38,171 nt of DNA. Origin: Phytoactinopolyspora halophila (GTDB taxonomy: Bacteria; Actinomycetota; Actinomycetes; Jiangellales; Jiangellaceae). A program made the translations under genes and the position numbers. Within the stretch, counting starts at the first letter, position 1; the number at the start of each line of letters is the position of its first letter. The notes beneath the pieces are model-generated. The model saw nothing but the letters and a program-made list of their open reading frames with translations. It did no database searches and was not told where the DNA came from. Below are positions 33,013 through 36,910 of the stretch, piece after piece. Location of the stretch: assembly GCF_003287285.1 (NCBI RefSeq), contig NZ_QMIG01000033.1, positions 1-38,171 of the forward strand, written 5' to 3'.

Positions 33013-33762
33013 ATGACCACACAGATGCCGGCGGGCGGTCAGCAAGGTGCCGGGCGCGCCGACGAGCAGGTCGACGGGGAGCTTGGCGTGGCCGACCAGC
33101 CTGGGGACGAGCTCGACCACCTCACCGATGCCGAGCTCGCCGAGGCCGAGGCGGAACTGGATCGGGAGCGGGCTGCGGAGCCGCACGTGTCCGGGCCCGT
33201 TCTCGGCTGGCTGATGGTGATCGGGGGCGCGATCGGGCTGTTCGCGTCGGCGATCTTGGCGATCGAACGGATCCTGCTGCTCGAGAACTCCGACTACACG
33301 CCGTCGTGCAGTTTCAACCCCGTGGTGAGCTGTGGCCAGGTCATGGAGAGCTGGCAGGGCGAGCTGTTCGGGTTTCCGAACCCGTTCATCGGTGTGGCCG
33401 CGTTCCCGGTGGTGGTCACGCTGGGTGTGGTGGCGCTGACGGGCGCGCGACTGCCGCGCTGGATGTGGTTGGGCCTCTGGGGCGGCACGGTGTTCGGCGC
33501 TGCCTTCGTGACCTGGCTGTTCACCCAGAGCGTCTACATGATCGGGGCGCTGTGCCCGTACTGCATGGTGGTGTGGCTGGTGATGATTCCGATCTTCGTC
33601 TACACCACGAGCTACGTGCTCGCCGAACGCCACCTTCCGGCGCCGGCGGGCGTGCGGCGGGCGGTGGTGCGCAACCGCGCGCTCATCACGCTGGTGTGGC
33701 TGCTCGCCATCGCGATTCTGATCACGGTGGAGTTCTGGGATCGCTGGTATCTCGTCTTCTGA
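33013..33762 (+). CDS. Vitamin K epoxide reductase family protein
   Basis: 249 residues. A roughly 60-residue acidic N-terminal cytosolic extension (DAELAEAEAELDRERA, probably coiled-coil) precedes a four/five-helix VKOR domain. Loop cysteines C99 and C107 and the active-site CPYC (181-184) are present. Bacterial VKOR reoxidises DsbA-like proteins using menaquinone, supporting disulfide formation in exported proteins. No fused thioredoxin domain and no DsbA gene adjacent, so the partner is encoded elsewhere. ATG 33013 has AGGG about seven bases upstream. The 247-base gap 32766-33012 separates it from the divergent DUF4129 operon. Confidence 0.9.
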   Translation: MTTQMPAGGQQGAGRADEQVDGELGVADQPGDELDHLTDAELAEAEAELDRERAAEPHVSGPVLGWLMVIGGAIGLFASAILAIERILLLENSDYTPSCSFNPVVSCGQVMESWQGELFGFPNPFIGVAAFPVVVTLGVVALTGARLPRWMWLGLWGGTVFGAAFVTWLFTQSVYMIGALCPYCMVVWLVMIPIFVYTTSYVLAERHLPAPAGVRRAVVRNRALITLVWLLAIAILITVEFWDRWYLVF

Positions 33763-33829
33763 TCCGACCGGACTGCCGGTGATTCTCCGGCCCGTGGCTC
33801 ACGTGCCCGAATGCGTTAGTCTGGTAGTT

Positions 33830-33865
33830 GTGCGAGGTCTGTTGCTCCTTATCAGGCCGCGCTGA
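33830..33865 (+). CDS. Leucine leader peptide of leuS (11 residues)
   Basis: GTG 33830 to TGA 33865 encodes VRGLLLLIRPR with four consecutive leucine codons (CTG TTG CTC CTT), each different, followed by one isoleucine. It lies 111 bases before leuS and just ahead of a hairpin and a T-run terminator. No ribosome site precedes it; TAGTCT at 33817-33822 could be a -10 giving a leaderless message beginning at the GTG. Ribosome stalling at Leu codons when leucyl-tRNA is scarce would expose alternative pairing. Leucine attenuators upstream of leuS have been predicted in some Streptomyces. Confidence 0.8.
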   Translation: MRGLLLLIRPR

Positions 33866-33906
33866 CGGCAGAAGCTGATGCCTGTCGGGCGTCGGTGTCA
33901 GCGCGG
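33857..33906 (+). promoter_or_regulatory. Attenuator stem overlapping the leader peptide end
   Basis: CCGCGCTGAC (33857-33866, covering the last codons and stop) pairs exactly with GTCAGCGCGG (33897-33906). A competing arrangement pairs GGGC(G)TCG (33887-33894) with CGAGCCC (33907-33913), which would occupy the left arm of the terminator. GCTGA (33874-33878) can also pair with TCAGC (33898-33902). A ribosome stalled on the Leu codons covers the first stem and would favour the antiterminator. The pairing scheme is my inference. Confidence 0.65.
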
Positions 33907-33908
33907 CG

Positions 33909-33935
33909 AGCCCCTCCTGTGCTGAGGGGCTTTTT
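33909..33935 (+). terminator. Intrinsic terminator before leuS
   Basis: AGCCCCTC (33909-33916), seven-base loop, GAGGGGCT (33924-33931), then TTTTT (33931-33935). It is the only hairpin in the window with a proper T-run, and it stands 41 bases before the leuS start rather than after a gene. This is the position of a leader attenuator, not a simple end-of-gene terminator. Confidence 0.85.
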
Positions 33936-33976
33936 GATGTCTGGAGACCGATCAACTAGGTGAGGATAGCTATCTG

Positions 33977-36910
33977 ATGAGCCAGACGGACACGAGCACC
34001 GCGATCGAGTCGGCAGAAGGCGGACCTGACGACGACGTGCCGTTCCGGTACACCAACGTCGTGGCCGCGCAGATCGAGGAGCGCTGGCAGGACTACTGGG
34101 AGGCGAAGGGCACCTTCCACACCCCCAACCCCGTCGGGTCGCTGGCCGAGCCCGACGCCCCGGCACCGGGTTCCAAGTTCTTCCTGATGGACATGTTTCC
34201 TTACCCGTCCGGGACGGGGCTGCATGTCGGCCATCCGCTGGGTTACATCGCGACCGATGTCATCGGCCGGTTCCGCCGGATGTGCGGATACAACGTGCTG
34301 CATGCCCTGTCCTACGACGCGTTCGGCCTGCCGGCGGAGCAGTATGCGGTGCAGACGGGGCAACATCCGCGCACCACCACGGAACAGAACATCACCAACA
34401 TGCGCCGCCAGCTGCGACGGCTGGGTCTGGCGCACGATCCGCGCCGGTCCTTTGCTACCACCGATCCGGGCTACATCAAGTGGACGCAGTGGATCTTCCT
34501 GCAGATCTTCAACTCCTGGTACGACCCCGGGGCCGACGGCGGCCGGGGCCGGGCACGCCCCATCGACGAGCTGGTCGCGGCCTACGAATCGGGCGAGCGT
34601 GCGACGCCCGACGGGCGTCCGTGGGCGGAGCTGACCGGGGTCGAGAAGCAGAAGCTGATCGATGATCAGCGCTTGGCCTACGTGTCCGAGTCCCCGGTGA
34701 ACTGGTGTCCCGGACTGGGCACGGTGCTGGCGAACGAAGAGGTCACCGCCGAGGGCCGGAGCGAACGGGGCAACTTCCCCGTCTTCCAGCGCAACCTGCG
34801 GCAATGGATGATGCGCATCACGGCGTACGCGGACCGCCTGGTCGACGATCTGGACCGCATTGACTGGCCGGACAAGGTCAAGGCGATGCAGCGCAATTGG
34901 ATCGGCCGCTCCGAGGGTGCCACGATCAACTTCGCGGTCGACGGCGCCAGTCGCGCCGGTGCCGGCGACGGCGACGGCGACGTGATCGAGGTCTTCACCA
35001 CCCGTCCGGACACCCTGTTCGGGGCCACCTTCATGGTGCTGGCTCCGGAACATCCGCTGGTCGACACGTCCGTGCCGCAGGCCTGGCCGGACGGAACGAA
35101 GGACGCCTGGACCGGAGGGTACGCCACGCCGCGCGAGGCCGTGGCGGCATATCAGGAGTCGGCGGCCTCGAAGACCGATCTGGAACGGCAGGTCGAGGGG
35201 CGCCAGAAGACCGGCGTGTTCACCGGCACCTTCGCGATCAATCCGGCTACCGGCGAGCGGATCCCGGTGTTCGTCGCCGATTACGTGCTGATGGCCTACG
35301 GCACTGGAGCGATCATGGCCGTGCCGGGCCAGGACGAGCGCGATTGGGAGTTCGCCGAGCGGTTCGAGCTGCCGATCATCCGCACGGTGCAGCCGCCGGA
35401 CGACTTCGACGGCAACGCGTACCTGGGCGACGGACCGGCCATAAATTCGGCGAATGACGAGATCTCGCTGAATGGATTGGGTGTCGACGACGCCAAGTCG
35501 GCGATCATCGCGTGGTTGCAGTCGCGGGGAGTCGGCGAAGGGACGGTGACGTACCGCCTGCGCGACTGGTTGTTCAGCCGGCAGCGGTACTGGGGTGAGC
35601 CGTTCCCCATCGTCTACGACGAGAACGCCATGCCGCATGCGGTACCCGAAGACCAGCTGCCGGTGCTGCTGCCGGAGGTGCCGAACTACTCGCCGAAGAC
35701 CTACGCCGCCGACGCCGCGGACACGGAGCCGGAACCCCCGCTGGCGCGGGTGCCCGAATGGGTTGAGGTGGAACTGGACCTGGGGGATGGGCCCAAGCGG
35801 TACTGGCGCGACACCAACACCATGCCGAACTGGGCCGGCTCCTGCTGGTACGAGCTGCGCTACCTGGACCCGGACAATGACGAGCGGCTGGTCGACCCGG
35901 AGATCGAGCGTTACTGGATGGGACCGCAGCCGCAACGCCGGACCGACGATCCCGGTGGGGTCGACCTGTACGTCGGCGGTGTGGAGCACGCCGTGCTGCA
36001 CCTGCTGTACGCGCGGTTCTGGCACAAGGTCCTGTACGACCTGGGGCACGTCTCCAGCGAGGAGCCGTTCTATCGCCTGTTCAACCAGGGCTATATCCAG
36101 GCCTATGCCTACACCGACGCCCGTGGCCAGTACGTTCCCGCCGCGGACGTGGAGGAGCGGGCCGACCGCGACGGCACCACGTACGTGTACGACGGCCAGG
36201 TCGTTAACCGCGAGTACGGGAAGATGGGCAAGAGCCTGAAGAACGTCGTCACCCCAGACGAGATGTACGAGGCGTTCGGGGCCGACACGTTCCGGGTGTA
36301 CGAGATGTCCATGGGCCCGCTGGAGGCGTCGCGTCCGTGGGAGACGCGCGCCGTCGTCGGCTCGCACCGGTTCTTGCAGCGACTATGGCGCAACATCATC
36401 TCGGAGCGGACCGGCGAGGTCGTTGTTTCTGACGCGTCCGCCAGCGACGACACCCGTCGTGCCCTGCACCGCACGATCGAAGCGGTGCGTTCGGACATGG
36501 AGTCGATGGGCTTCAACACGGCCATCGCGCGGTTGATCGAGCTGAACAACCATGTCACCAAGCTGGACGTGGTGCCGCGTGAGGTTGCCGAACCGATGGT
36601 CTTGATGGTGGCTCCCTTCGCCCCCCACATCGCCGAGGAGCTGTGGTCCCGGCTGGGTCACGCCGAGTCCGTCGCGTACGTGCCGTTCCCGGAAGTCGAT
36701 CCCCAGTGGCTGGTTGACGAGACGGTCACCTGCGTCATCCAGGTGGGCGGCAAGGTGCGCGAGCGGGTGCAGGTGGACCCGTCGTCGGACGACGACACGC
36801 TGCGGGAGCTGGCGCTGGCGTCGGAAGCCGTGCAGCGCTCGCTGGGTGAGCGTTCCGTGCGCAAAGTGATCGTCCGGGCGCCGAAGCTGGTCAACGTCGT
36901 TCCTGCTTGA
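33977..36910 (+). CDS. leuS: Leucyl-tRNA synthetase
   Basis: 977 residues, class I aminoacyl-tRNA synthetase that charges tRNA-Leu. The HIGH signature appears as HVGH at 83-86 after FPYPSGTGL, and KMSKS as KMGKS near 749-753. The CP1 editing region (about 255-450) includes the conserved [13 protein letters not shown] and [20 protein letters not shown] segments. The C-terminal anticodon-binding and tail domains end in [15 protein letters not shown] 33977 has GAGG about 11 bases upstream. Expression is probably controlled by the leucine attenuator just upstream. The stop overlaps the degV region by a few bases; leuS-degV-comEA order is common in Actinobacteria. Confidence 0.98.

Follow-up and report, generated by a model that had tools for sequence, protein, structure and literature searches.

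A probable leucine attenuator, very probably leaderless, before leuS of Phytoactinopolyspora halophila, at odds in its anatomy with the textbook scheme of competing helices

In the usual teaching, ribosome-mediated attenuation works through two base-paired structures that compete, and leaderless polycysteine uORFs were reportedly described in mycobacteria by Canestrari in 2020. The latter resemble the element treated here as leaderless control-codon leaders of actinobacteria and differ from it in lying at cysteine genes; conserved terminator hairpins were not seen in mycobacterial cys leaders according to the accessible part of PMC1262725. The closest described systems belong to Streptomyces, where leuS attenuators consisting of an antiterminator and a terminator were predicted in 2005 in S. 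avermitilis and S. coelicolor (PMC1262725), and where leuL2, with the peptide MRAVRLLLSEPR, was mapped in 2021 as a leaderless frame before leuS of S. lividans, followed by a hairpin and a U run (PMC8079986), both as given in the accessible parts of these papers. Other actinobacterial leaders described there and in the accessible part of PMC10272879 include the LEU element before leuA, which is a pseudoknot whose Leu run pairs with the Shine-Dalgarno box (PMC1262725), and the ilvB-II uORF motif of Corynebacterium, for which pairing of an arm of P2 with the P1 loop is the proposed antiterminator (PMC10272879). The leuS leader element as such is thus already known, since these accounts, as far as accessible, describe it in Streptomyces, and the sequence analysed here holds a member in another lineage. 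That sequence, called the window, is the whole stretch of 38,171 nucleotides from Phytoactinopolyspora halophila (contig NZ_QMIG01000033.1, positions 1 to 38,171), and the following features are found before and at its leuS gene.

33817..33822, plus strand: -10 hexamer TAGTCT, ending 7 nt 5' of the GTG at 33830
33830..33865, plus strand: leader peptide frame MRGLLLLIRPR followed by a stop, 11 codons, GTG start, TGA stop
33848..33850, plus strand: putative control codon CTT, at a conserved place 5 nt 5' of helix A
33856..33866, plus strand: helix A, the 5' arm GCCGCGCTGAC, holding the stop codon (covariation and fold)
33874..33896, plus strand: inner hairpin inside the A-A' loop (fold; not general, the loop of relatives being 3-46 nt)
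33897..33907, plus strand: helix A', the 3' arm GTCAGCGCGGC, abutting the terminator without a gap (gap of 0-1 nt in 85/91 relatives)
33908..33935, plus strand: intrinsic terminator, hairpin 33908-33932 and T run TTTTT 33931-33935 (fold and covariation)
33977..36910, plus strand: leuS, leucyl-tRNA synthetase, 977 aa (TIGR00396 match)

The leader frame carries four different consecutive leucine codons within its 11 codons (CTG TTG CTC CTT at 33839-33850, read from the sequence), exactly as an earlier note on this DNA had described it. That note had also placed a 10-bp stem over the stop codon; the stem does cover the stop, and its length is 11 bp (A:A', 33856-33866 with 33897-33907). Together with the inner hairpin, A:A' folds at -36.1 kcal/mol (z -5.3), with none of 200 shuffles equally stable, and the terminator hairpin, whose stem begins one base after A', has 9 bp and a folding energy of -15.5 kcal/mol. 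The ATG of leuS at 33977 lies 41 bases 3' of TTTTT, which agrees with the distance given before, and further terminator-like sites exist in the window, five consecutive T occurring at none of those listed. The identity of LeuS is given by the profile match to TIGR00396 at 904 bits (cut-off 548), and a gene for the GAG isoacceptor of tRNA-Leu is present in the genome. No Rfam family, T-box models included, reached its gathering score in the window, and a search relaxed to E <= 5 returned sX13 as its sole match (14.1 bits against a gathering score of 50); a T-box riboswitch, considered as a candidate, was rejected, no Rfam T-box model matching at gathering score in the window. The leuS element is very likely a Leu-tRNA attenuator, and with nearly the same confidence it is read as a ribosome-mediated transcription attenuator of leuS with the anatomy described here.

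The occurrence of the leader was followed in relatives. Searching 40 of them for LeuS gave 30 leuS loci, at 25 of which a leader was evident at once; a 26th was recognised later (L027, the same as L065), and none was seen at four of the 30 loci inspected (L021, L026, L028 and L029). A covariance model, R1, was built from 24 leaders, all of them CTT-bearing and with A' aligned close to the terminator. R1 matched 22 of the 22 genomes of the order, which in effect represent one family; 162 of 393 genomes of the class, from 64 of 137 genera, under strict filters; and, across the phylum, 20 of 396 genomes, namely 16 of the class and 4 from one genus of another class. Outside the class, no genome beyond those of L360-L363 matched in this draw of 396 under strict filters. 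The claim of a Leu-codon attenuator before leuS, of the type predicted in Streptomyces (PMC1262725, accessible part), is supported by the comparison. At L360-L363 (family f79) a complete leuS leader with the same layout is present, for example with the peptide MAAHLLLIWPR followed by a stop; families f4 and f36 have genomes listed in the phylum draw without an R1 match. The S. lividans peptide MRAVRLLLSEPR, followed by a stop, was found in L024, L063, L064, L070 and L076.

The analysed set comprises 93 leaders from 25 families, with a LeuS frame downstream of 92 of them, the contig of the 93rd running out. For want of a LeuS match, 11 R1 loci were set aside, 10 of them having a cimA-like gene and one, L139, having been fetched too wide; also left out were the near-identical L007, L010, L013-L015 and L017-L020 and the duplicates L030 (= L141) and L142 (= L024). 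The pairing tests were run on 90 of the 93 leaders, without L124, whose upstream sequence is missing, and without L016 and L135, in which the fold rule gives no terminator. A pattern scan of named genomes gave at least 118 stretches, 80 of which were listed, mostly from Streptomyces, with Kitasatospora, Streptantibioticus, Actinophytocola, Jiangella, Actinomadura and Serinicoccus also represented; among these 80, LeuS lies within 400 nt downstream in 76, and 77 have TANNNT at 6-7 nt 5' of a start codon. Two of the scanned stretches (L195 and L221) have neither LeuS nor the hexamer with a start and resemble stray matches, while in two others (L176 and L180) the sequence ends too soon. The LeuS proteins downstream of the leaders are of two deeply divergent kinds, 56-80% and 37-46% identical to that of the window, besides a short match at a contig end (L054) with 35% identity; loci that bear on this include L053, L060-L062, L068-L069 and L072-L074. 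The presence of the leader before both kinds suggests either replacement of the gene under a kept leader or joint transfer. In one genome (G012) two very different leuS genes, L025 on C5 and L053 on C30, each have their own copy of the leader.

All 92 leaders with readable upstream sequence have a TANNNT hexamer close to the start codon, its end lying 6 nt away in 63 and 7 nt away in 29 of them, the start being taken as the nearest in-frame one with a hexamer 4-9 nt upstream, of which spacings only 6 and 7 occurred; the background for this spacing, counted along a single strand over 1.17 Mb of the own genome, is 120 of 34733 ATG/GTG (0.35%). Because 92 of 92 hexamers sit 6-7 nt before the start against such a background, the leuS leader is very probably leaderless, and TAGTCT would put the transcript start on or beside the GTG at 33830. 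For S. lividans leuL2, leaderlessness is reported in the accessible part of PMC8079986. The exception, met in the pattern scan, is a Serinicoccus stretch (L203) with TACCAT 9 nt before ATG. These leaders also bear on a simpler explanation, by which the hairpin is a plain terminator of the upstream gene and the frame before it a chance ORF: a VKOR-family gene indeed ends at 33762, 67 bases 5' of the leader frame, whereas in the 25 families sampled the leader is kept at leuS together with a -10 hexamer of its own and the position of its control codon is fixed, and we consider this explanation scarcely credible.

Differential conservation was observed for the parts of the leader. The A:A' and terminator helices are paired in 97.9% of cells, in an alignment that was fitted to the model. 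Two-sided changes occur in 12 of 18 pairs, and 142 compensatory cells were counted over 94 rows, one of them a spurious minus-strand match of L053 in the A2 alignment that was dropped elsewhere; none of 500 shuffles scored as high, and slid controls gave 13 compensatory cells or fewer. In the terminator, 6 of the 7 modelled pairs show two-sided changes. At the place 5 nt 5' of helix A, 85 of the 93 leaders have the codon CTT, 7 have CTC and 1 has CTG, a CTT count that is biased upward because R1 was trained on CTT-bearing leaders; in the own genome CTT makes up 4.2% of the 17446 Leu codons of 359 long frames, the codon table being restricted to long frames with GC3 > 0.80. The comparison of Leu codons and stem changes in related genomes, which the earlier note had proposed as a check, yielded both a kept control codon and compensatory changes; two of its refuting conditions, a Leu run not kept in relatives and the lack of a start near 33820-33830, are answered on such comparative grounds. 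Directly 5' of the control codon, 54 of 92 leaders have CTC, 23 have CTG, 14 have CTT and one has CGC, hence CTC or CTT in 68 of 92. Both CTC and CTT are normally read by the GAG isoacceptor of tRNA-Leu. Four Leu codon types are present in just 7 of 92 leaders, so that the idea of four distinct codons as a sensor of several isoacceptors finds no general footing among the relatives, where CTT is the constant element and the use of four different codons a detail of the lineage.

Stop position and loop vary more freely. The stop codon lies before helix A in 13, inside it in 71 and after it in 9 of the 93 leaders while the CTT stays 5 nt from A, and it is therefore the distance, not the stop, that seems to be constrained; the A-A' loop ranges from 3 to 46 nt. 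The gap from A' to the terminator is 0 nt in 47, 1 nt in 38 and 2-4 nt in 6 of 91 leaders, figures that carry a selection bias, since the A2 alignment was fitted to R1, which sets A' near the terminator. The GCCGCG of helix A (33856-33861 and in relatives) is near-invariant even where it is mostly non-coding, with the stop before A. In comparison with Streptomyces leuL2, the element has the same gene, the same peptide class and a hairpin with a U run, and one model fits both lineages, whereas the member in the window belongs to another lineage, starts with GTG and carries CTG TTG CTC CTT. In their accessible parts, the leuL2 reports mention neither the constant CTT nor the spacings of 5 nt and of A' to the terminator, nor the lack of a competing helix. 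The accessible parts of the open-licence literature likewise gave no description of these features or of the cimA cousin treated below.

By the classical explanation, the stalled state frees A' or the loop to pair with the terminator arms, and an antiterminator thus formed excludes the terminator. Much of the element is of this kind: control codons, a helix overlapping the stop, an intrinsic terminator and a gene of the same amino acid are shared with the trp-type attenuator, every classical part except the competing helix being present; an antiterminator is marked in two Streptomyces leuS leaders (PMC1262725) and a pairing of terminator with loop is described for Corynebacterium ilvB leaders (PMC10272879), each in the accessible part of the paper; and A' of the window could, by eye, pair over 7 bp with the terminator loop. 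In the relatives, however, upstream segments paired with the terminator no better than did their dinucleotide shuffles (mean z for the leader 0.01, n=90; loop 0.08, n=81; A' -0.14, n=89). Permutations within families gave p 0.40 for A' and 0.09-0.99 for pairings of the Leu run or the CTT-spacer with the terminator, and the pairing of the Leu run with the terminator, for which p <=0.005 was obtained when families were pooled, fell to 0.09-0.23 within families; the loop against the terminator was assessed by z alone. The positive controls, A with A' and T5 with T3, were reached by 0 of 2000 permutations. Minimal members such as L119, with a 3-nt A-A' loop, have little else available to pair. The leader, the loop, A', A and the Leu run, tried as antiterminators, are all unsupported, with z near 0 and no within-family signal. 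No competing antiterminator is thus detectable by excess or by covariation, an invariant one being of a kind that would show in z only, and the plausible antiterminator of the earlier note did not reappear as a helix in excess or covarying. The element differs from the trp type in this respect (an invariant weak pairing would escape these tests), in that A:A' and the terminator of leuS are compatible and flush, and in being probably leaderless; with the ilvB-II uORF motif it shares a uORF, a first helix (P1), a terminator (P2) and an actinobacterial host, and differs in the antiterminator, none being found at leuS. At equilibrium the pairing of the terminator exceeded 0.8 in 84 of the 90 leaders when no ribosome was present, in 89 when CTT occupied the A site and in 84 when the stop codon did, and since it stays paired in all three ribosome states, base pairing alone is not the switch. 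The classical competing helix is on balance an unlikely explanation.

A further explanation is translational, the Leu run or a leader helix masking the Shine-Dalgarno sequence of leuS as in the leuA LEU element, which is likewise a Leu-codon leader peptide. In some relatives CUCCUUAUC is by eye complementary to GAUGAGGG before leuS; over 86 loci, however, permutation within families gave p 0.59 for the Leu run, 0.33 for A, 0.84 for A' and 0.40 for T3 against the Shine-Dalgarno region, and a conserved terminator lies between leader and gene, so that this explanation is very improbable. Masking was rejected as a candidate, the true partners having no advantage over permuted ones in the 86 loci, and the Shine-Dalgarno pairing of the LEU element was not found at leuS.

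Ribosome docking is put forward, tentatively, as the most likely route to read-through, with the classical competing helix ranked after it and an action of A:A' alone third. RNA polymerase would start at or next to the GTG at 33830, and the leader would be translated as a leaderless message. With ample charged tRNA-Leu, the ribosome would pass CTT into helix A and hold A:A' open, upon which the terminator would form and leuS would be off. With scarce charged tRNA-Leu, it would pause with its A site at one of the Leu codons, CTT being the last of them. A distance of 5 nt separates CTT from helix A, the start of which would correspond to +12 from the P site, about the mRNA entry of the ribosome, and A:A' could therefore form fully against the waiting ribosome; frameshift hairpins stand at a similar distance. 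Once the ribosome advances past CTT, A:A' would open irrespective of the stop position. As no gap separates A' from the terminator, a ribosome stalled at 5 nt from their junction would be brought by A:A' to the terminator base, where the terminator hairpin would have to zip within the exit channel of RNA polymerase, and crowding would prevent closure of the lower terminator pairs, giving read-through into leuS. We infer the direction of regulation, the ribosome stall and the steric docking step; the clash itself is built on general dimensions of ribosome and polymerase and is proposed with the same caution as the route. With CTT in the A site, a +16 ribosome footprint masks 4 nt of A, and A:A' is then more than 0.8 paired in just 58 of 90 leaders and 0.50 paired in the window, an objection to docking in its simple form. 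The near-invariance of GCCGCG also exceeds what docking would need, as other base pairs could serve.

It may instead be A:A' alone which, lying flush, hinders or helps closure of the terminator, the ribosome just opening or permitting A:A' and making no contact with polymerase. The flush gap and the mutual compatibility of the helices suit this account, which nevertheless would leave the exact 5-nt distance of CTT from A unexplained and would place the no-translation state on the side of the starved state; it seems rather improbable. More broadly than for leuS, it is conceivable, with still more reserve than for docking at this locus, that actinobacteria use a separate attenuator class, ribosome docking, with two compatible tandem hairpins and no antiterminator, in which a ribosome at one rare codon, 5 nt from the first hairpin, would sterically block the terminator, and with the same chassis carrying Leu codons at leuS or Ile codons at cimA.

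The isoleucine cousin was met among weak R1 matches of the class search, which led to Ile-codon leaders before a cimA-like (citramalate synthase) frame at 10 loci. A model built from the Ile leaders, R2, matched 176 of 393 class genomes, some of the matches being leuS leaders themselves, and 16 of 16 further R2 matches taken up precede a cimA-like frame. One such leader lies in the genome of the window.

L319:13926-14015 (= G000:C5:93926-94015), minus strand: Ile leader MTHWMIII followed by a stop, preceding cimA

The protein after it is a citramalate synthase (TIGR00977, 629 bits, cut-off 450). Other Ile leaders before cimA were observed at L123, L130-L134, L136-L138, L140 and L364-L379, in many genomes of the class. 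A parse limited to gaps of 0-2 and to helices at 0-10 nt from the Ile pair succeeded for 47 of 49 cimA leaders (L369 and L379 remaining unparsed), with a gap from helix to terminator of 0 in 44 and 1 in 3 and a loop of 3 to 56 nt. In 43 of these 47 the helix has an Ile codon at 4-6 nt on its 5' side. Compared with leuS this spacing is less strict, the nearest Ile codon lying 4 to 8 nt away (8 nt in L374, L376 and L377). In the own genome, a strict scan of 1.21 Mb for the architecture returned one match, the leuS leader, with one in the shuffled control as well, and a relaxed scan returned 19 matches against 12, its two best-scoring ones being the cimA leader at the top and the leuS leader; the relaxed scan was not blind, because the -10 pattern had been loosened after cimA leaders had been seen. 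Counting of matches within the own genome was rejected as a proof of significance, given 1 against 1 and 19 against 12.

The textbook scheme of competing helices does not describe the anatomy of this probable and probably leaderless leucine attenuator. Near-constant in it are two spacings and one rare codon, and drift is seen in the length of the loop, the place of the stop and the other residues of the peptide. If docking is true, the contact between ribosome and polymerase would itself be the switch. The fixed place of the control codon would also make the sensed amino acid readable from sequence, as the isoleucine members at cimA suggest. The element, found in many actinobacterial genera, probably serves to have more LeuS made when charged leucine tRNA is short.
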